From an uncultured Alphaproteobacteria bacterium (GTDB lineage Bacteria > Pseudomonadota > Alphaproteobacteria > HIMB59 > GCA-002718135): a stretch of DNA of 48,621 nucleotides. This document shows, one piece after another, positions 22,022 through 37,154 of this stretch. Location of the stretch: positions 1 through 48,621 of the forward strand of contig CACEMP010000009.1 of NCBI GenBank assembly GCA_902560675.1, given 5' to 3'. The translations under genes and the position numbers were made by a program. How positions within the stretch are numbered: position 1 is the first letter of the stretch; every line of letters starts with the position of its first letter. The notes under the pieces were generated by a model. The model saw nothing but the letters and a program-made list of their open reading frames with translations. It did not search any database and had not been told where the DNA came from.

Positions 22022-23498
<1,477 letters not shown>

Positions 23499-26886: not shown

Positions 26887-28008
26887 TCACTTGCCATCAA
26901 ACATTTTGTAATTTGCTTTTTCTAGCCAATTTTTATTTGGTTCAATTCCCCATCCGGGTTTATCATCAATAATTAAATGTCCGTTGTCAACTTTTGGATA
27001 ATCATTATAAATATCATTCTGCCAAGGATAAAAATCCTCACCCTCAATAGAATATTCTAAATATGGCCCAGCATTTTCTATAGCCGCTAATAAGTGTAAA
27101 GTAAAAATTGTAACTAATGACATATTAGCTGCATGAGGTGTGCAAATCATATTTTTTTTAGATGCATATTTTGCCACTCTTAATGTTCTCTCTATTCCAC
27201 CTAAATATAGAATATCTGGCTGTATTACATTTACAATTTTTTCATCAATATACTTTTTGAATATTGTTATGCTATTATCTTGTTCTCCACCAGTTATATT
27301 TAAATCTAAAGTTTCAGTTACTTTTTTAGTCCATTCGTGCTCCCAGTATGGGCAGGGTTCCTCATAATGAATAATGCCATTACTTTCTAAAATTTTACCA
27401 ATTTCAATTGCTTTGTCAGGGGTATAACAACTATTAGCATCTACTAACAAATCACTGTTTTTAAAATTTTTTCCCATTAGTGAAATAATTTCTTCTGTAC
27501 GACCCTCCCACTCATCTTGATTCCTTCCAACTTCAGAGCCAATTCTAAATTTAAAAGCAGTAAAACCACTCTCATCAATTAATTTCTTAAATCTATCAAC
27601 TTCATCTGCAGGTGTAATTTGTCTTTTCATACTTGATCCATAAACTTTTATTTTTTTTGTTTTACATTTTCCAATTAAATCACAAACAGGTTTATTTTTT
27701 ATTCTTCCATGCATGTCCCAAATAGCAGTATCTATTCCTCCTAGTGCTCTACACATATAAGTACCAGGAAATTTGTGTTGTTTATCATAAATCAGGTCTA
27801 TTAAATTTCCTAAGTTATTTAAATCTGCTATGTTAGCTCCAATAATAAAAGGAGCAACCTGGCGATATAATACTTCAGTACTTATATCTGAGTTATAAGG
27901 GGATATTTGTCCCCAGCCAAAATTATTTGTATCAGTTGTTATTTTTACTAAAGTAACACCCTTAATAAATTTACTATCTGTATATGTTTCAATCTTTGAG
28001 ATTTTCAT
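26887..28008 (-). CDS. Enolase-superfamily (mandelate racemase/muconate lactonizing-like) enzyme
   Basis: The 373-residue protein has the capping N-domain and the barrel residues of the superfamily: K153-x-R155 in FKFRIGSE, metal ligands Asp190 (LLVDANSCYTP), Glu216 (YEEPCP) and Glu242 (TGGEQDN), and His292 in CTPHAANMS. This set matches the mandelate-racemase type with a His general base rather than dipeptide epimerases, which use a second Lys. Members abstract an alpha proton next to a carboxylate, most often as acid-sugar dehydratases. It is the last gene of the dpp-M19-GMC operon (ATGA overlap with the GMC gene, Shine-Dalgarno AAGGAT before the start). Substrate unassigned. Confidence 0.82.
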   Translation of the reverse strand: MKISKIETYTDSKFIKGVTLVKITTDTNNFGWGQISPYNSDISTEVLYRQVAPFIIGANIADLNNLGNLIDLIYDKQHKFPGTYMCRALGGIDTAIWDMHGRIKNKPVCDLIGKCKTKKIKVYGSSMKRQITPADEVDRFKKLIDESGFTAFKFRIGSEVGRNQDEWEGRTEEIISLMGKNFKNSDLLVDANSCYTPDKAIEIGKILESNGIIHYEEPCPYWEHEWTKKVTETLDLNITGGEQDNSITIFKKYIDEKIVNVIQPDILYLGGIERTLRVAKYASKKNMICTPHAANMSLVTIFTLHLLAAIENAGPYLEYSIEGEDFYPWQNDIYNDYPKVDNGHLIIDDKPGWGIEPNKNWLEKANYKMFDGK

Positions 28009-29615
28009 TTATTATCCTTAATTAAATCAGAGCACTTTTCTCCAATCATCATGCATGCAGCATTTGTGTTACCTGAAATAAGATTTGGCATTACTGAACC
28101 ATCAGCAACTCTTAAATTTTTAAATCCATGAACTTTTAGTGAATTATCAACAACAGAATCTTTATCGCTAAATCCCATCTTACATGTTCCTACTGGATGA
28201 TAGGTAGTTTTAGAGTTTTGTCTAATAAAATCAATTTTTTCATTTTCAGAATTTACGAATTTATGCGGACCAACCTTTCTTTCAACAAAATTTTTTAAAG
28301 GCTTTGTTTGTGAAATTTTATTTGATAAATTGTATGCTTTTAGCATTAGAGATAGATCATTTTCATGATCAAAATAATTTGGATTTATAGATGGATGATC
28401 TATAGGATTATTTGAATTAATTTTTACATAACCTTTGCTTTTTGGTCGTAGTACACATGGAGCAATTGTAAAGCCAGAAAAAAGATCAGGTTGAATAGAT
28501 GAATATTTTGAATTAGTTAAATTGGTGGCTGTTAATGGTAGAAAATAGATTTGTAAATCAGGAGTATTAATCGATTGATCAGACTTAACAAAAGCACCTG
28601 CTTGATTAATACTTAATGTTAGTGGACCATTTTTGAATAAAAACCATTTTAAAAAATAAAATATTTTGTTAGTAATTGGTCTTAAATCATCATTTAATGA
28701 TCTTACAATCGTTTTATAATGTAATGCTACATTAAGATGATCTTGCAGGTTTTTACCAACATATTTTAAATGTTTTACTTTTTTGATATTATAATTATTT
28801 AAATCTTCGAAATCTCCAATACCTGATAATTGAAGAATTTGAGGAGAAGATATAGAACCTGCACTTAAAATTATCTCACCATTACAGTTTGCAAAAAATT
28901 TTTTTTTATTTTTTAAATACTCGATACCAATTGCGATATCATCTTTAAATATAATTTTTGATACATGTGATGATGTTATTAATTTAAAATTTTTATTTTT
29001 AATTTTTCTCAAATATTCTCTTGAAACGTTACTTCTCACACCTTTATTTGTATTTAGTTGATATAAGCCTACGCCTTCTTGATCTTTGCCATTAAAGTCA
29101 TTATTTTTAATTATTCCTAAATTTATACAGGAATCTATAAAATGGTCTGTCAATTGATGTTTTTCTTTTTCAATATTGGAAATTTTAATTTGCCCATTAT
29201 CATTATGATATGATGTTTTTCCTAAATAATGAGCCTCAAGTTTTTTGAAGTAAGGAAGCACGTCATCCCAACCCCAATTATTTATTTTCCAATTATCATA
29301 ATCTTCTTTTTGACCTCTTATATAAACCATTGCATTTATCGAGCTGGACCCTCCAAGAATTTTTCCTTTTGGCCAATAATCTCTTCTATTATTTAACCCT
29401 TTGATTTTTTCAGTATAGTATTTCCAATTAACTTGATTATTGTTAAAGAGATAACCATAACCAGCTGGTATTTTTACTGTAATTTTATTGTCATTATTAC
29501 CAGCTTCTACAAGTAGTATTTTTTTATTAGGAAAATACTCACACAATCTATATGCTATTATTGATCCTGCAGAACCAGAACCAATAATAATATAATCATA
29601 TGTTTCATTAGCCAT
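28005..29615 (-). CDS. GMC-family FAD-dependent alcohol/choline dehydrogenase-like
   Basis: The 536-residue protein shows the GMC signature throughout: YIIIGSGSAGSIIAYRL (FAD-binding), GKILGGSSSINAMVYIRGQ, IILSAGSISSPQILQLSGIG, and the active-site His473 in TTYHPVGTCKMG with the C-terminal VADGSVMPNLISGNTNAA. It oxidises an alcohol to an aldehyde or ketone with FAD and resembles BetA in overall length. It need not be choline-specific: it sits in a peptide-transport operon, 3 bases after the M19 gene and overlapping the enolase-superfamily gene, which suggests a polyol, amino-alcohol or hydroxy acid as substrate. Confidence 0.88.
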   Translation of the reverse strand: MANETYDYIIIGSGSAGSIIAYRLCEYFPNKKILLVEAGNNDNKITVKIPAGYGYLFNNNQVNWKYYTEKIKGLNNRRDYWPKGKILGGSSSINAMVYIRGQKEDYDNWKINNWGWDDVLPYFKKLEAHYLGKTSYHNDNGQIKISNIEKEKHQLTDHFIDSCINLGIIKNNDFNGKDQEGVGLYQLNTNKGVRSNVSREYLRKIKNKNFKLITSSHVSKIIFKDDIAIGIEYLKNKKKFFANCNGEIILSAGSISSPQILQLSGIGDFEDLNNYNIKKVKHLKYVGKNLQDHLNVALHYKTIVRSLNDDLRPITNKIFYFLKWFLFKNGPLTLSINQAGAFVKSDQSINTPDLQIYFLPLTATNLTNSKYSSIQPDLFSGFTIAPCVLRPKSKGYVKINSNNPIDHPSINPNYFDHENDLSLMLKAYNLSNKISQTKPLKNFVERKVGPHKFVNSENEKIDFIRQNSKTTYHPVGTCKMGFSDKDSVVDNSLKVHGFKNLRVADGSVMPNLISGNTNAACMMIGEKCSDLIKDNK

Positions 29616-29618
29616 AAT

Positions 29619-30599
29619 CTATTTCCAATTTTTTTTTGCTATCCTTAAAAAATTTTCTCCCAGTATTCCTTTTATATCTTTAATCGAATAGTTTTTCTTT
29701 ATTAGAATATTTGTTACATCGAATATTTTTTCTGGTTCAAAATATATAAAACCTTCCATATTATTCAGATACTCTTTTGGTAAACCAAATTTGTTTGATT
29801 TAACCTGTCTTAAAAATTGTTTTTGATAATAGACATAGTCTAATCCTAATCCAATATGCTTTGGACCAACTAAATCAGCTATATAATCAATATTATTAAC
29901 AAAATTTTCTGGAGATATATCGTTATTTTTTAGAAAATGCCCGAAACCAACTATTCCAATTAATCCATCTGTTCGTGCACATTTTTTTATTTGCTCATCT
30001 GATATATTTCTATTTGTTTTTTTTAACTTATTTGGATTAGAGTGAGAAAAAATTACAGGTTTGTTTGACAGTTCTATTGCTTCTAATGAACTCTTATAAC
30101 CAGTGTGTGTTAAGTCAACTATCATTCCAACCCTGTTCATTTCTTTAATAAGTGCTTTTCCATAAAGACTAAGTCCTGCATTTGCTGGTTCAAAACAGCC
30201 ATCGGCAGCTTTAGATCTATAATCTTTTGCTAGAAGCATGTGTCTTATACCCAAATCATAAAAAACTTTTACATTACTAACTTTACCACCAAGCATCTCA
30301 GAGCCTTGAAAATGAAAACCTAAAGCCAGTTTATTTAAATTTTTAGCATTTCTTATTGTTGCAATATTTTCTGCAAAAACATAGTTTTTATTTTTTTTAA
30401 TATATCTTTTTACTTCTTTTATATATTCAACAGTTTGTTTAGTATTCATCCTTTCAACACCAACACTTAGGCTAACAAAACCGAATTTTGATTTATAATA
30501 TCTGTCTAGAATATTATCTTTATTTTGTGCTTCAGGAACCCAAGGCAGGGTTAAGTCACAGATAATAGACTGATTATATAAACGTAATTTATTTTTCAT
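29619..30599 (-). CDS. Membrane dipeptidase-like (peptidase M19) protein, atypical metal site
   Basis: The 326-residue protein follows the renal dipeptidase fold: Glu101 in GFHFQGSEMLGG, His165 in VDLTHTGYKSS, His186 in PVIFSHSNP and Asp254 in IGLGLDYVY. The N-terminal HxD ligand pair of classic M19 enzymes is absent; the corresponding stretch reads IICDLTLPW. Loss of that pair removes ligands of one zinc, so the enzyme may use a single metal or act on a non-peptide substrate. It lies 2 bases after the ABC ATPase gene and 3 before the GMC gene, so it probably processes what the importer brings in. No signal peptide is visible, which fits a cytoplasmic location. Confidence 0.82.
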   Translation of the reverse strand: MKNKLRLYNQSIICDLTLPWVPEAQNKDNILDRYYKSKFGFVSLSVGVERMNTKQTVEYIKEVKRYIKKNKNYVFAENIATIRNAKNLNKLALGFHFQGSEMLGGKVSNVKVFYDLGIRHMLLAKDYRSKAADGCFEPANAGLSLYGKALIKEMNRVGMIVDLTHTGYKSSLEAIELSNKPVIFSHSNPNKLKKTNRNISDEQIKKCARTDGLIGIVGFGHFLKNNDISPENFVNNIDYIADLVGPKHIGLGLDYVYYQKQFLRQVKSNKFGLPKEYLNNMEGFIYFEPEKIFDVTNILIKKNYSIKDIKGILGENFLRIAKKNWK

Positions 30600-30601
30600 T
30601 T

Positions 30602-32248
30602 CTAACCTTCAGTATAAAGGGTTGATTTATAATTTATATTTCTTTCTTTTATGTTTGGTAAATTTGCTAAAAGTGCTTTTGTGTAAGAATGTGATGGTTG
30701 GGAAAATACTTTTTTTGAATTTCCTAGTTCAACGATTTCTCCAAAATACATAACAGCTACTCTATTACTAATGTAATTTACTACACTTAAATCATGACTT
30801 ATGAATACAATTGTTAAATTTTTTGTCTTATTTAATTTTAAAATTAGATTTAATATTTGAGCTTGTATTGAAACATCTAAAGCTGAAACGATTTCATCAC
30901 AAATAAGAACTGATGGATTTACCGCAAGAGAACGAGCAATCGCAATTCTTTGTCTTTGACCACCTGAAAATTGATGAGGATATCTAAACATTAGATCAGG
31001 ACTTATGCCACAATCATTCATAAATTTAGATACATATTCTTTTGATTGTTGTTTATTAATGATTTTATGAACAATTGGTGCTTCTGATATTATATCTATA
31101 ATTTTTTTTCTAGGATTTAATGAACTATAAGGATCTTGAAAAACCATCTGTATATCCAACGATGTCTTTTTGGCATATGAAATTTCTTTTTGATTATAAA
31201 ATATATTACCTGAATTCTTTTCTAATATACCTGATATAATTTTACCAAGAGTTGATTTACCACAACCTGACTCACCAACGACTCCAAGTATCTCGCCTCT
31301 TTTAATATTCAAAGATAAATTTTTTATAGCTTTATCAGGTTTTAAATCATGTTTATTTGCTTGAAAGAATGTGAATAAATTTGAAGCAAAAGTATTTCTC
31401 TTTTCATATATTTTTGTTAGATTTTGAATGTTAATTACATTATCATCTATCTTTCTTTCTTCATTAATATTACCTTTAGGAATAGAATTGATTAGTTTTT
31501 TTGTATAAGAATGTTGAGGATTATCTAAAATATTATCAACTCCTCCAGTTTCTACAATCTTGCCATTATACATGATAGATATTTTATCAACTAATCCAGA
31601 TAGAACTGATAAATCATGAGTAATCCATATTAAAGCAGTATTGTTTTCCTTACAAAGTTTCTGTGTTAAATAAAGTATTTGAGCTTGAGTTGTTACATCT
31701 AAGGCTGTTGTTGGCTCATCTGCTATAATAAGATCGGGTTTATTTATTAGAGCTATTGCTATCGCAACTCTCTGTCGCATACCTCCAGAAAATTCGTGTG
31801 GATAATTTTTAATTTTTATTTCTGCATCTTTAATACCTACTTCAATAAGTGATTGTACTGCAAGATTTTTAGCTTCCTTATAGCTAATTTTATTATGAGC
31901 TAAAACTGCCTCTATCATTTGAGTTTCAATACTTAGAATTGGATTTAATGACATTGTTGCATCTTGAAATATCATAGAAATTTTTTTTCCTCTAATTGAC
32001 TTCATTTTTTTTTCATTCAGTTTTGTAATGTCTTTTCCATTGAAATAAATTTTCCCTTCAACAATTTTTCCTGGTTCTTGTAATAGATTGATTATAGATA
32101 GCCCCATTACAGATTTTCCTGATCCTGACTCTCCTGCAATTCCATGTATCTCACCTGATGATATATTAAAATTTATATCATCCACAGCTTTCACTATATT
32201 TTCTCTTGTAAAAAAATGAGTTTTCAAATTTTTGATTTCTAAAATCAT
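30602..32248 (-). CDS. Fused DppD-DppF type ABC transporter ATPase
   Basis: The 548-residue protein contains two complete ABC domains. The first has Walker A GESGSGKS (39-46), signature FSGGMRQR and Walker [10 protein letters not shown]. The second has [16 protein letters not shown] and [12 protein letters not shown]. Each ends with an oligopeptide-type C-terminal extension ([13 protein letters not shown] and [13 protein letters not shown]). It powers import by the adjacent permease pair of a peptide/nickel/opine-type transporter. Fusion of the two ATPases is common in this family (GsiA, YejF). It overlaps dppC by 4 bases. Confidence 0.95.
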
Positions 32249-33126
32249 ATATTCAGCCTAGGATTTAATAAAATTCTTAATCTATCAGAAAATATATTTA
32301 TACTTATTACTGTTATTAACAAAAATAAACCCGGGTAAAGACTCATCCAATATTTACCTACAATAATATATTCATAACCATTAGAAATTATTAATCCAAT
32401 TGAGGGTTCAGTTATTGGCAGGCCAACTCCAAGAAAAGAGAGAGATGCCTCTAGAGTTATTGCAAAGGCTAAATTAATTGTACTTAATACAATAATTGGT
32501 GGTAGACAATTTGGTAATAAATGGCCGAATACAATTCTATACTGAGGTAAACATAAACATTTGGCAGAATAAAAATAATCTTTTTCTTTTTCAGATAATG
32601 CAGAGCTTCTTATAACCCTAGCGAAAGTAGCCCACTGACTCATTACTAAAGCAAAAACAACATTTTCTAATCCTCTACCTAAAATAGATAATAAAACTAA
32701 TGCGATTAAAAAACTTGGCATAGCTAACACCATATCAGCTACTCTCATAATGAAACTATCAACTATTCCTCCAAAATAAGCACTTACTACTCCTAAAATT
32801 ATTCCAATTATTAAAGAAATAACTACACTTAATATTCCAACATAAAGACTAATCCTTAGGCCGTAAATAATTGCGCTTAATAAATCTCTTCCTTGATCAT
32901 CTGTTCCTAGAAAAAAATAATTATTCTCATAAGATTGAGACAGGGGTGGTAATAGAGAATCTAATATATTTAATTGAGATAAATCATATGGATTTTGCAG
33001 TGTAAAAAGAGGTCCAAAAATTACTAATATTAAAATGAAAATCAAATTTATTAAAAAAAATAATGCTAACTTATCTTCAGAATAAATTTTTACAAAATCT
33101 ACAATATTGAATTCGTTTTTTTTCAT
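32245..33126 (-). CDS. DppC-type peptide/opine ABC transporter permease
   Basis: The 293-residue membrane protein has the DppC N-terminal helix, the FLGTDDQGRDLLSAIIYGLRISL motif and the EAA loop near ARVIRSSALSEKEKDYFYSAK, ending with LSFLGVGLPITEPSIGLI. It forms half of the membrane channel with the upstream DppB-type protein. Its ATG overlaps the dppB stop as TAATG, which indicates coupled translation. Confidence 0.94.
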   Translation of the reverse strand: MKKNEFNIVDFVKIYSEDKLALFFLINLIFILILVIFGPLFTLQNPYDLSQLNILDSLLPPLSQSYENNYFFLGTDDQGRDLLSAIIYGLRISLYVGILSVVISLIIGIILGVVSAYFGGIVDSFIMRVADMVLAMPSFLIALVLLSILGRGLENVVFALVMSQWATFARVIRSSALSEKEKDYFYSAKCLCLPQYRIVFGHLLPNCLPPIIVLSTINLAFAITLEASLSFLGVGLPITEPSIGLIISNGYEYIIVGKYWMSLYPGLFLLITVISINIFSDRLRILLNPRLNI

Positions 33127-34097
33127 TACTTATCTGATATCCTTATCCGAGGGTCTAAAAGAGAGTATAAAATATCTACAATTAGATTAACTAACATGAA
33201 AATAAAAACTGTAACTAAAAGATAAGCAACAATTACTGGGCGATCTAAAAGAGTTATAGACTCAATAATAAGTCTACCCATTCCGGGCCAAGCAAAGATA
33301 CTTTCAGTAATAACTGCAAATGCAATTAGAACTGAAAATTGTAATCCTATAACTGTAACAATTGGAATTAGTATATACTTTAATAAATGATAATAAATTA
33401 TCCTAAATCTACTTAAGCCTTTTGCCCTCGCAAATTTTATAAAATCCAAAGGAAGAGTCTCTTGAATACCAGCAAATGTTAATCTTATAACCAATGCTAG
33501 AGGGTAAAGTGCTAAATTTATTGATGGAAGTGCCAGATGTTTAAGTCCATCGAAAGTTAAAAAACTAAAGTAAAATCCAAATATTTCTACCGTATCTCCC
33601 CTTCCAGTTGATGGAAAAAAATTGTAACTTACAGCAAAAATCATAATTAAAATCAAACCAACCCAAAAAGTTGGTAAGCTAAAGAAAAAAATTGACATTG
33701 CTAAAATTGATTTACTAATGAAATTATCTGGATTCAAGCCAGCGATAGTACCCAACGGTATACCAATTATAATGGCAATTAATAGAGCACTAATTGTTAA
33801 CTCTAATGTTGCTGGTAGACGCTCAAGTATTAAAGATATAGCAGGTCTATTGTGAACAAAAGAATAACCTAATTCTCCCTTAAAAGCATTTTGTAAAAAA
33901 ATATAATATTGCTCAAATAATGATTTATCTAGACCTAAATTTTTAATTGTTTTTATTTTTTCTTCCTCAGAAGCTTCAGGATTAATCAAAACATCAATTG
34001 GGTTACCAATTGCATAAACTGCAGCAAAAACTAGCAGTGACATAATAAGTAAAACTATAAAGCTTTGTATTATTCTATTCGTTAAGAAAATTAGCAT
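33126..34097 (-). CDS. DppB-type peptide/opine ABC transporter permease
   Basis: The product, about 323 residues from the ATG at 34097, has the DppB hallmarks: first helix with LTNRIIQSFIVLLIMSLLVF, LGLDKSLFEQYYIFLQNAFKGELG, the EAA loop (FIKFARAKGLSRFRIIYYH) and ESIFAWPGMGRL. The longer frame starts at ATG 34127, but that codon lies inside the hairpin at 34118-34143, so the internal start is preferred. It pairs with dppC and the fused ATPase. The substrate class (peptide, opine or other) cannot be told from the permease. Confidence 0.92.
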   Translation of the reverse strand: MLIFLTNRIIQSFIVLLIMSLLVFAAVYAIGNPIDVLINPEASEEEKIKTIKNLGLDKSLFEQYYIFLQNAFKGELGYSFVHNRPAISLILERLPATLELTISALLIAIIIGIPLGTIAGLNPDNFISKSILAMSIFFFSLPTFWVGLILIMIFAVSYNFFPSTGRGDTVEIFGFYFSFLTFDGLKHLALPSINLALYPLALVIRLTFAGIQETLPLDFIKFARAKGLSRFRIIYYHLLKYILIPIVTVIGLQFSVLIAFAVITESIFAWPGMGRLIIESITLLDRPVIVAYLLVTVFIFMLVNLIVDILYSLLDPRIRISDK

Positions 34098-34117
34098 TGA
34101 AAGATTCTTATAATTTA

Positions 34118-34143
34118 TGAAGAGCATAAAATTATGCTCTTCA
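34118..34143 (-). promoter_or_regulatory. Intercistronic hairpin between dppA and dppB
   Basis: TGAAGAGCAT and ATGCTCTTCA (34118-34127 and 34134-34143) form a perfect 10-bp stem that can extend to 12 bp over a tiny AT loop. It lies between the stop of the binding-protein gene (34156) and the dppB start. No strong T tract follows in the direction of transcription, so it more likely stabilises the dppA mRNA or causes partial termination, which would raise binding protein over permease. Confidence 0.6.
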
Positions 34144-34155
34144 TATAATTTTTTT

Positions 34156-35727
34156 TTAGTTAGCTTTTTTTACTAACATTACTTCAAAAGCTTCGTCTGC
34201 TCTTGGAGTATAGTCAACCTTATCAGTTGTACCAACTGTCACAAATTGTGAATGAAGTGGAATTGCACCTTGATCTTCAGCAATCAAAATTTCCATAGCT
34301 CTTTTTAGATAATTCTCATAGACTTCCATATCAAAAGCTGCAGAAGCTCTTTCTACTGCGTCATCAAATTCACTATTTGAATATCCTCCAGCATTCCAGC
34401 TACCATAACCTTCCTCTTTCGTGTGGAAAGCAGCACTTAATGACATCAATGATGAACCAGTAAAAGCATTATCCCATCCAATCATAGACAGGCTAAATTC
34501 CTGTTTGTTTAATCTTCCAAAATAAACTGCTTTAGGCATTGTCTCTACTTGCATTTTCAAACCAATTTTTGAAAGCATTTGAGCAATTGCTTGAGCTATT
34601 TTGTCATCATTTACATAACGATCATTAGGCGCATGTACTGTTAAACCAAAACCATCAGCATATCCAGCTTCAGCCATTAATTCTTTAGCTTTATTTACAT
34701 TGAATTCATTTTCAGGAATGTTTTCACTGTAACTAAAAAATCCTTTTGGAACAACTTGATTTGCCTCCTCAGCTAGTCCATCCATAACCTTTGAAACAAT
34801 TGCATTTCTATCAATGGCCAAAGAAAGAGCTTTTCTTACTCTTTTATCTTTTAATGGATTAACTGACATAGCATTTCCGTCATTATCAGTTACAAATGGC
34901 GAATTGTCATTTTGTGTATCTACATATAACCATAAAGTTCTTGCACTTGCTCTTTTCGCAACTTTAAATCCTTCTTTAGACTCAACAGCCGGAACCGATG
35001 AAGGTGATAATCCCTCAAGAATATCAACGTCACCTGCTAACAGTGCAGCTACTCTAGAGGCTCCATCAGGCATAATTTTAAAAGTTACATCATGAAAATC
35101 AGGTTTTGTACCCCAATAATTATCATTGATTGTAATTTGATAATTATCTCCAGGAGTATAACTTTTGAATTTGTATGGACCTGTTCCAATTGCTACTTTA
35201 CCAGAAGCAAAATCCTCAGTTGTTGAACCGTCAACATTACTCTTTGATACTATTGCAACACCAGATAATCTTCTAAGAAGTAATGGATAAGGATTTTTAG
35301 TCTTAACAACTAAAGTATGACTGTCAGTTGCTTCAACAGAGTCAATCATATTAACATTTGATTCATAGCTTGCAGGATTGTTAGGGATATTTGGTATTCT
35401 GTCTATTGAAAAAATAACATCATCCGCTGTGAAGTCACTTCCATCATGAAACTTAACTCCTTTTCTTAGATTAAATTTCCAAGTTAAATCATCAACATTT
35501 TCCCATGACTCAGCAAGGCGAGCAACTATGTTTGCATTTTCATCTCTGTCAATTAATCTTTCAAAAATATATCTAGAATAAGCAGCATTTGGCCCAAGAT
35601 ACAACCAATGTGGATCAACGGAAGGATCATGAGGAGTCGCAACTGTTAAATTGTCACTTAAAACTGATTTACTTAAAAAAATAATTGAAGCAAAAACGAA
35701 AAAAGTTTTTAAAAATTTCTTAATCAT
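34156..35727 (-). CDS. Family 5 extracellular solute-binding protein (DppA-like)
   Basis: The 523-residue periplasmic binding protein has a signal peptide (residues 1-24, ending VLS). The SBP family 5 blocks are LAESWENVDDLTWKFNLRKG, VKFHDGSDFTADDVIFSID, GTGPYKFKSYTPGDNY and KDKRVRKALSLAIDRNAIV. It captures the substrate for the following DppBC-DF importer. The family binds peptides, but also nickel, opines and sugars. A GGAGGA Shine-Dalgarno at 35731-35736 and a good promoter upstream suggest strong expression. Confidence 0.95.
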   Translation of the reverse strand: MIKKFLKTFFVFASIIFLSKSVLSDNLTVATPHDPSVDPHWLYLGPNAAYSRYIFERLIDRDENANIVARLAESWENVDDLTWKFNLRKGVKFHDGSDFTADDVIFSIDRIPNIPNNPASYESNVNMIDSVEATDSHTLVVKTKNPYPLLLRRLSGVAIVSKSNVDGSTTEDFASGKVAIGTGPYKFKSYTPGDNYQITINDNYWGTKPDFHDVTFKIMPDGASRVAALLAGDVDILEGLSPSSVPAVESKEGFKVAKRASARTLWLYVDTQNDNSPFVTDNDGNAMSVNPLKDKRVRKALSLAIDRNAIVSKVMDGLAEEANQVVPKGFFSYSENIPENEFNVNKAKELMAEAGYADGFGLTVHAPNDRYVNDDKIAQAIAQMLSKIGLKMQVETMPKAVYFGRLNKQEFSLSMIGWDNAFTGSSLMSLSAAFHTKEEGYGSWNAGGYSNSEFDDAVERASAAFDMEVYENYLKRAMEILIAEDQGAIPLHSQFVTVGTTDKVDYTPRADEAFEVMLVKKAN

Positions 35728-35795: not shown

Positions 35796-37154
35796 TTAAA
35801 GTTTTAGAAGATCTTTTATTTGATAAGCAAAATAAACTAATTTTAAGTATATTTTTCGAAAACTAGAAATTGGTATTTTTTTTGGTAAACCCTTATATAC
35901 CCTTGAAATATTAAGACTACCATAGTTAGAACCATGGACTAACTTAGAAAGTTGCATTCCAGACCATGGAGCTGAACTTACGCCATTTGCATGGTAACCA
36001 AAACTATAAAAAATATTTTCATCTTCAATTTTTCCTATAGAGGGTGCTAACTTTGTTGTAAATGCAACCAGCCCTCGCCAAGTATAATCAATGTTTATAT
36101 TTTTCCATTCAGGAAAAACTGATTTAAAATCTTTTTCAATAATTTTAGAAATATTTTTGTGAGATTTATCACTGCCACTGATATCGCCTCTAGCGCCAAA
36201 AAGAATTCTATTATCTGGTAATTTTCGATAATAATACAAAAGATTACGAGTATTAACTATGGGCGAATATGTTTTAAAATTATGCAGTGAAAGCTCTCTA
36301 TCTGACAATGGATTTGTTACAATAATATTTGAAATTATTGGAAGGATTCTAGAATCTATTTGCTTAATTAAACCATCTTGATAAAAACCATTAGTAGCAA
36401 TAACAATTTTTTTTGATTTAATTATTTTATCATTTGCTTTAGCAATATAGAAATCTGCTTCTTTAGTCACAGATGTTATTTTTGTTTTATGAAAAATATT
36501 AATTTTATTTTTTAAAGCAGCATTTAAAAGGCCTAAGTAAAATTTTAGGGGATTTAATGCAAATCCAGGTTTGTAAGACAAGGCTCCGAATTGTTCATTG
36601 CCTGAATGTCCAATTTTATCAAATTCTTCTTTATTATGTATTTTTGATTCAATTCCAAATATCTTATTATAAATTTCACTCTCTTTGATTAATTTATCAA
36701 ACTTACTTTCAGTATGTGCTACAACATAATTTTGGTTGCCTGAAACATCACAGTCAATATTGTATTTATTTATAAGATTTTTAGTATAATTTGTTCCCTC
36801 AATACAATTTTTAAAAAAAGATATTGTTTCATCTTTACCATATCTTTTCATTAATTGATTTATCGTCAGTTTTGTTGGTGGTATGCAACAAAAACCTGCA
36901 TTTCTTGTTGATGCGCCCCATCCTATTACTCCAGCGTCAACTATACAAATATTAAGATTATATTTTTCAGACAAATTTATTGCGCACGATAATCCTGTAT
37001 ACCCAGCACCAATAATTAAGACATCAAATTCTTCATTTTGACTCATAATTTCTAGGTTTAAAAATTTACTATAATTAGTATCTAGAGAAAACCAATATGA
37101 CTTAGGCAAATCTTTAAAATTGTATATGTCGTTATGATACATAGGATGATACAA
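35796..37154 (-). CDS. DAO-family FAD-dependent amine oxidoreductase (PuuB-like)
   Basis: The 452-residue protein has an N-terminal leader of about 40 residues, then the FAD Rossmann motif FDVLIIGAGYTGLSCAINLS and the GWGASTRNAGFC motif typical of gamma-glutamylputrescine oxidase-like enzymes. Downstream, GALSYKPGFALNPLKFYLGL and YTWRGLVAFTTKLAPSIG match the DAO substrate domain. It likely oxidises a secondary or primary amine, releasing an aldehyde and ammonia or amine. It precedes the dpp operon by 68 bases on the same strand, so it may share its regulation, though dppA has its own promoter. Confidence 0.85.
   Translation of the reverse strand: MYHPMYHNDIYNFKDLPKSYWFSLDTNYSKFLNLEIMSQNEEFDVLIIGAGYTGLSCAINLSEKYNLNICIVDAGVIGWGASTRNAGFCCIPPTKLTINQLMKRYGKDETISFFKNCIEGTNYTKNLINKYNIDCDVSGNQNYVVAHTESKFDKLIKESEIYNKIFGIESKIHNKEEFDKIGHSGNEQFGALSYKPGFALNPLKFYLGLLNAALKNKINIFHKTKITSVTKEADFYIAKANDKIIKSKKIVIATNGFYQDGLIKQIDSRILPIISNIIVTNPLSDRELSLHNFKTYSPIVNTRNLLYYYRKLPDNRILFGARGDISGSDKSHKNISKIIEKDFKSVFPEWKNINIDYTWRGLVAFTTKLAPSIGKIEDENIFYSFGYHANGVSSAPWSGMQLSKLVHGSNYGSLNISRVYKGLPKKIPISSFRKIYLKLVYFAYQIKDLLKL

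Follow-up and report, generated by a model that had tools for sequence, protein, structure and literature searches.

What does a protein of the peptidase family M19 do once it has lost the first two metal ligands of the dipeptidase site? The question is raised by a gene in a 48,621-nucleotide contig of an uncultured alphaproteobacterium (CACEMP010000009.1; this whole stretch is called the window below), whose product a first-pass annotation had described as dipeptidase-like and devoid of the N-terminal HxD motif (Table 1). The product matches the Pfam model PF01244 (Peptidase_M19) with 246.3 bits against a curated cut-off of 26; a search of the NCBIfam profiles gave no matching model at E 0.001. 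The Pfam match starts only at position 32 of the profile, which corresponds to residue 24 of the protein, so the HxD strand falls outside it. An AlphaFold2 model computed from 58 sequences (the window protein and those of fetched loci) has a mean pLDDT of 94.6, with 274 of 326 residues at 90 or above and a stretch of lower confidence around residues 21–30. In a fold comparison with VIA-align, 17 M19 entries rank first (Z 35.6–43.8) and the next listed entry reaches Z 17.1. Sequence and predicted fold together place the protein in family M19.

Table 1. Positions in the window of the M19 gene, of the residues discussed and of the neighbouring genes
Feature	Positions	Strand	Basis
M19-fold amidohydrolase-like protein (P0001), 326 aa, intact ORF	29619..30599	-	Pfam and AlphaFold2
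Strand 1, residues 15–19 (D-L-T-L-P); T17 and P19 at the places of the canonical His and Asp ligands	30543..30557	-	alignment
End of strand 3, residues 96–98 (H-F-Q); Q98 for the bridging Glu, H96 a candidate compensating residue	30306..30314	-	alignment
Glu101	30297..30299	-	variable among relatives; outside the ligand column
Lys125-Asp126, just after strand 4	30222..30227	-	alignment and AlphaFold2 model
His165, retained; beta-site ligand by homology	30105..30107	-	alignment
His186, retained; beta-site ligand by homology	30042..30044	-	alignment
Arg197, invariant	30009..30011	-	alignment
Asp254, retained; catalytic Asp by homology	29838..29840	-	alignment
DAO-type FAD oxidoreductase, upstream of the binding protein	35796..37154	-	profile match
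Family-5 solute-binding protein; homologue adjoins M19 in two distant genomes	34156..35727	-	profile match and neighbourhoods
OppB-type permease	33126..34127	-	profile match
OppC-type permease	32245..33126	-	profile match
Fused OppD-OppF type ABC ATPase, upstream of the M19 gene with a gap of 2 bases	30602..32248	-	profile match
GMC oxidoreductase, downstream of the M19 gene with a gap of 3 bases	28005..29615	-	profile match
Mandelate racemase/muconate lactonizing (enolase superfamily) protein, 4-base overlap with the GMC gene	26887..28008	-	profile match

The replacement of the HxD pair proposed by the annotation, which had read the start of the protein as CDLTLP, was confirmed. Strand 1 spans residues 14–19 in the model, and the N-terminal sequence SIICDLTLPW lacks the HxD pair of the binuclear renal-type dipeptidases. 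The residues of the human renal enzyme that the annotation named are metal ligands, and in an alignment of 201 M19 proteins the canonical D-G-H-N-D corresponds to residues 15–19, with Thr17 in place of His20 and Pro19 in place of Asp22. We rejected a gapless alignment on the shared Leu-Pro, which would set the His against D15 and the Asp against T17, because W-D-x-T in the relatives of the window protein corresponds to W-D-x-H in a sister clade; D15 is therefore the conserved Asp that precedes the His. A ‘swapped D-x-H’ arrangement of ligands in that sister clade was likewise discarded, since the Asp of the D15 column precedes a His that is conserved.

The change reaches further into the metal site than had been claimed. 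The canonical Glu (E125 counted along the chain of 9h0b), which we take to be the bridging metal ligand, aligns with Gln98 in both phmmer and profile alignments with solved M19 structures. The annotation had assigned a metal-binding role to Glu101, which does not hold: this residue aligns three positions past the bridging Glu, where GliJ and 9h0b carry His, and its position holds E, N, D, R or T among 14 rows of the wider group to which the window protein belongs (window included). His165, His186 and Asp254 were correctly placed and do not vary across the 58 aligned sequences. They form the half of the site that is the beta site of the amidohydrolase superfamily. Across the larger set, His186, Arg197 and Asp254 occur in 201 of 201 proteins and His165 in 199, the two exceptions being the only proteins that combine a strand-1 His with Leu at the bridging position. 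The window protein thus keeps the beta-site His pair, the catalytic Asp and the substrate Arg of the binuclear enzymes; Arg197 is presumably the Arg that contacts the substrate carboxylate. Such near-universal retention reads as constraint and not as decay. Judged from these alignments, the binuclear zinc site must be altered, as had been expected, the two-metal dipeptidase site is not kept, and the reaction probably differs from that of a dipeptidase.

The closest known protein by both sequence and fold is 2i5g, an ‘amidohydrolase’ of Pseudomonas aeruginosa (27–28% identity; Z 43.8, rmsd 1.9 over 317 residues). Like the window protein, it has the M19 fold without HxD, carries Gln for the bridging Glu and keeps the His/His/Arg/Asp set. 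The two differ in strand 1, which reads IDGLIIAKW in 2i5g and CDLTLPW in the window protein, and 2i5g has Gly and Tyr-Asn at the places of His96 and Lys125-Asp126. M19 proteins of the renal dipeptidase type (human DPEP1, Sco3058, GliJ) resemble the window protein in fold (Z 39–40), in the beta-site His pair, in Asp254 and in Arg197, whereas their strand-1 His and Asp, bridging Glu and strand-4 His are all replaced in it.

The combination seen in 2i5g and the window protein, Gln at the bridging position and no His on strand 1, recurs in a large part of the M19 proteins collected. In the 201-row set, which includes the window protein (L083) and is biased towards it, 142 proteins show this pattern, 54 have His and Glu, two His and Leu, and one Glu without His; two more, both with Gln, are cut off at strand 1. 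The His is accordingly missing in 143 of the 201 proteins of this biased sample, 142 of which carry Gln. The set comprises 80 loci chosen by similarity to the window protein, 31 from its own genome and relatives, and 90 from a phylum-wide search that gave an M19 match in 98 of 299 genomes; the 90 were the 30 best matches and 60 hand-picked loci, 44 of them picked for a late start of the profile match. These phylum-wide loci divide into 49 without His and with Gln, 39 with His and Glu, and two with His and Leu, counts that yield no frequency on account of the hand-picking. A second retrieval of the window (L001) was dropped from all counts, as was a repeat (L203) of the second M19 gene of the same genome (L002), and some loci duplicate one place (for example L137 and L143).

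That second M19 protein also lacks HxD, its strand 1 reading IDGLEYCNW, and its gene lies near those of a sarcosine-oxidase-alpha-like protein and two DAO oxidoreductases. A study of Vibrio natriegens places a ‘predicted dipeptidase (pepD)’ upstream of dgcAB and the same gene at the same place in P. aeruginosa (PMC12093977). Our literature search found nothing on 2I5G, PA5396, PA5397 or DUF5943; PA5396 was absent among the matches listed for ‘membrane dipeptidase’, HxD-less members were untreated in the titles and abstract openings of the matches listed for the M19 family, and a query with the human ligand residue names gave no match. We assume that the P. aeruginosa gene at the dgcAB place encodes 2i5g. 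The window protein thus belongs to a large kind for which there is a solved structure but, in the literature searched, no assigned function, and the functional lead for its HxD-less relatives is genomic position only. Examples from marine bacteria adjoin sarcosine-oxidase-like, betaine-transport or dimethylglycine genes, neighbours which hint at a common step in the use of dissolved organic nitrogen. Since the metal site implied by the name ‘membrane dipeptidase’ is missing from many proteins that match the M19 model, their automatic annotation is probably wrong. Near HxD-less M19 genes at two loci we observed genes for proteins of 553 and 584 aa that look alike by eye (L203, 6054–7712, and L018, 3310–5061, both on the minus strand), neither with a Pfam match at 1e-8; in L018 the 584-aa protein is followed by a DUF3726 protein.

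The distribution of these traits was examined on a tree of 112 rows, computed with the strand-1 and bridging columns removed and with a root that serves for drawing only; near-duplicates and six rows with long or odd branches (L110, L164, L197, L180, L185, L186) were left out. The deepest split sets the canonical HxD proteins and seven HxD-less rows (L155, L183, L170, L171, L176, L177, L181) against the rest of the HxD-less rows. In a 97-row tree built with the trait columns, L170 and L177 were among the rows on the HxD-less side. The window protein shares its side of the split with L188, whose strand 1 reads as in 2i5g, but belongs to a separate subclade: it groups with L003, L204, L205 and L206 (support 99/95; L204 is 45% identical to it), and the strand-1 signature of this group is CD[LM][TC]LPW. 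The suggestion that the altered start marks a distinct subfamily is borne out by this clade.

On the 112-row tree, 56 rows have both the strand-1 His and the Glu, 53 have neither, two have Glu without His (L011 and L221, both in the window protein's own wider group) and one has His without Glu (L135). On this tree the His changes at least twice and the Glu at least four times. An independent-pairs test of coupled change found two pairs only, too few for significance, so that a coupled loss of the two ligands is suggested and not proven.

A 35-row group (support 99/96) unites the clade of the window protein with the 21-row W-D-x-H clade (for example L005 and L194). Fourteen rows of the wider group were classed by hand as of the DxT type; Thr17 is present in nine of them, the rest having Cys, Val or Leu. 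The W-D-x-H clade resembles them in Cys135 (20/21) and His248 (21/21), and differs from the window protein in keeping the strand-1 His and the Glu, in having Cys or Gly for the Asp and in carrying Asp at position 96 (21/21). At this position the DxT-type rows have His (10/14) or Asn (4/14), canonical rows mostly Gly (18/35) or His (6/35), and other rows Gly (36/42). The alignment thereby suggests that each clade rebuilt the inner wall of the metal site in its own way, and His or Asn96 might compensate for the ligands lost in the group of the window protein. In the W-D-x-H clade (L194, L005, L153 and 18 other rows) only the strand-1 Asp is lost, and its Asp96 is a candidate for the relocation of a ligand. 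These signatures give a sorting rule for M19 proteins: HxD with E; HxC or HxG with D96 and E; TxP with H96 or N96 and Q; and LxY with G96 and Q. The strand-1 and strand-3 signatures also name specific residues for tests.

A further peculiarity lies just after strand 4. At position 125 the window protein has Lys, where most HxD-less rows have Tyr and 29 of 35 canonical rows have His. The pair Lys125-Asp126 occurs in five of 246 aligned entries, which represent the three genomes of the window's lineage, two counted twice, and it replaces a Tyr/Phe-Asn otherwise constant among the relatives. Lys125-Asp126 and its like are lineage-specific extras on top of the HxD-less M19 kind, and with this replacement the chemistry of the window protein may have drifted from that of its relatives.

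The gene stands within an apparent operon whose order is binding protein, OppB, OppC, fused OppDF, M19, GMC oxidoreductase and enolase-superfamily protein, neighbours overlapping or lying 2–28 bases apart; the DAO-type gene is possibly part of it. Orthologues of the M19 protein (93–94% identity) were found in two of 161 other genomes of the order at E 1e-50. With its own genome this makes three of 162, so the operon looks accessory, although most of the order's genomes are incomplete; among those at least 90% complete the count is 0 of 20.

Neighbourhoods compared at 23 loci of relatives show a family-5 binding-protein match near eight. At two of these, in distant genomes, the protein stands beside a DxT-type M19 and is 42–43% identical to that of the window (L235 and L238); at the other six identity is 24–28%, and permease matches occur too at L010, L013 and L245. 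The stretch compared around the close relatives L236 and L237 contained no family-5 importer: the M19 gene of L236 adjoins a class-III aminotransferase gene, and that of L237 is surrounded by a TRAP-type permease, an NMT1-like binding protein and a carbon-nitrogen hydrolase. None of the 23 loci has a GMC gene among its neighbours, and enolase matches are confined to two weak ones, at 24.6% (L240) and 22.0% (L247), both near W-D-x-H relatives. Of the operon partners, only the binding protein thus recurs beside two distant M19 relatives. Conversely, the neighbourhoods of ten homologues of the enolase-type protein include a GMC gene in nine and an M19 gene in none, and the GMC and enolase-type genes therefore look like a separate module, joined here to the importer and the M19 gene. 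The partners had been called unusual, a description that applies only in part. The pair itself (26887–29615 in the window) is recurrent in alphaproteobacteria (L278–L287; enolase-type proteins about 49–54% identical), and in L278, of the same genus, it follows genes that by eye resemble nagA and SIS-domain sugar genes. The solved structures nearest to the enolase-type protein are 3t8q, 3u4f, 3tcs and 3t9p, all with family-level names only.

The retention of His165, His186, Asp254 and Arg197 suggests a one-metal hydrolase acting on a carboxylated solute. The reading that we favour, with a probability of roughly 0.55, is that of a cytoplasmic amidohydrolase of M19 fold with one metal at the beta site, unlikely to be an ordinary dipeptidase, whose substrate would be brought in by the neighbouring family-5 ABC importer. 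A single ion held by His165, His186 and Asp254, perhaps with Gln98 or His96, would activate water to cleave a small carboxylated solute at an amide or similar bond, after which a product would be oxidized and dehydrated by the GMC and enolase-type enzymes. We infer the number of metals, the reaction, the substrate and the order of the pathway from the residue replacements, conservation, predicted fold and gene order reported above. Escherichia coli NagA (N-acetylglucosamine-6-phosphate deacetylase), from a different family of the amidohydrolase superfamily, offers an analogy, having lost the strand-1 HxH and working with a single metal. The precedent is imperfect because NagA keeps its bridging Glu and the window protein does not. 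The E. coli site is described as mononuclear, QxN being the single-metal motif that replaces HxH; pointing the other way, single mutations at expected ligand or metal-site residues abolished the activity of the two-metal mycobacterial NagA (PMC6016474).

The strongest competitor, which we nevertheless regard as unlikely, is a metal-free and non-hydrolytic use of the fold, in which Arg197 and the His pair would bind a carboxylated ligand in an isomerase, a lyase or a regulatory pseudoenzyme. Three of the five residues that classically contact the metals are indeed gone, and the bridging charge is removed in nearly every row that has lost the strand-1 His. However, the beta-site His pair and Asp254 persist in every one of these rows, and a metal-free binder would have no need to keep them together. 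Rather less probable is a fuller metal site completed by substitute ligands, either His96, which precedes Gln98 by two residues on strand 3, or Lys125 and Asp126. The restriction of position 96 to His or Asn in the wider group and to Asp in the sister clade would fit this, as would the fixation of Lys125-Asp126 across three genomes; yet Asn is a poor ligand, His96 is found in canonical rows too, and the other rows of the wider group lack Lys125.

We give little credence to a more specific proposal, that Lys125 is carboxylated and holds the single metal with His165 and His186 in place of the strand-3 Glu, with His96 and Asp126 as secondary helpers. Carboxylated Lys binds metal in phosphotriesterase and dihydroorotase. 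If the proposal were true, the metal carboxylate would have moved from strand 3 to strand 4 in this lineage, and the subtype of the metal site would have switched within one enzyme family. Least credible of all is an ordinary M19 dipeptidase with tolerated substitutions living on imported dipeptides: the Pfam score above cut-off, the adjoining Opp/Dpp-type transporter and the retained Arg197 would agree with it, but both strand-1 ligands and the bridging Glu are replaced, and such transporters carry other solutes too, the agrocinopine-binding AccA ranking above dipeptide-binding proteins as the second-best solved relative of the window's binding protein.

Elsewhere in the window, at 22022–23477 on the minus strand, the only groEL found in the genome is broken into two frames, which match residues 1–243 and 313–554 of an intact 558-aa relative, about 69 residues between them being missing. 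A second copy is possible, the genome being 82% complete; since groEL is normally essential, the break is likely an assembly artefact.
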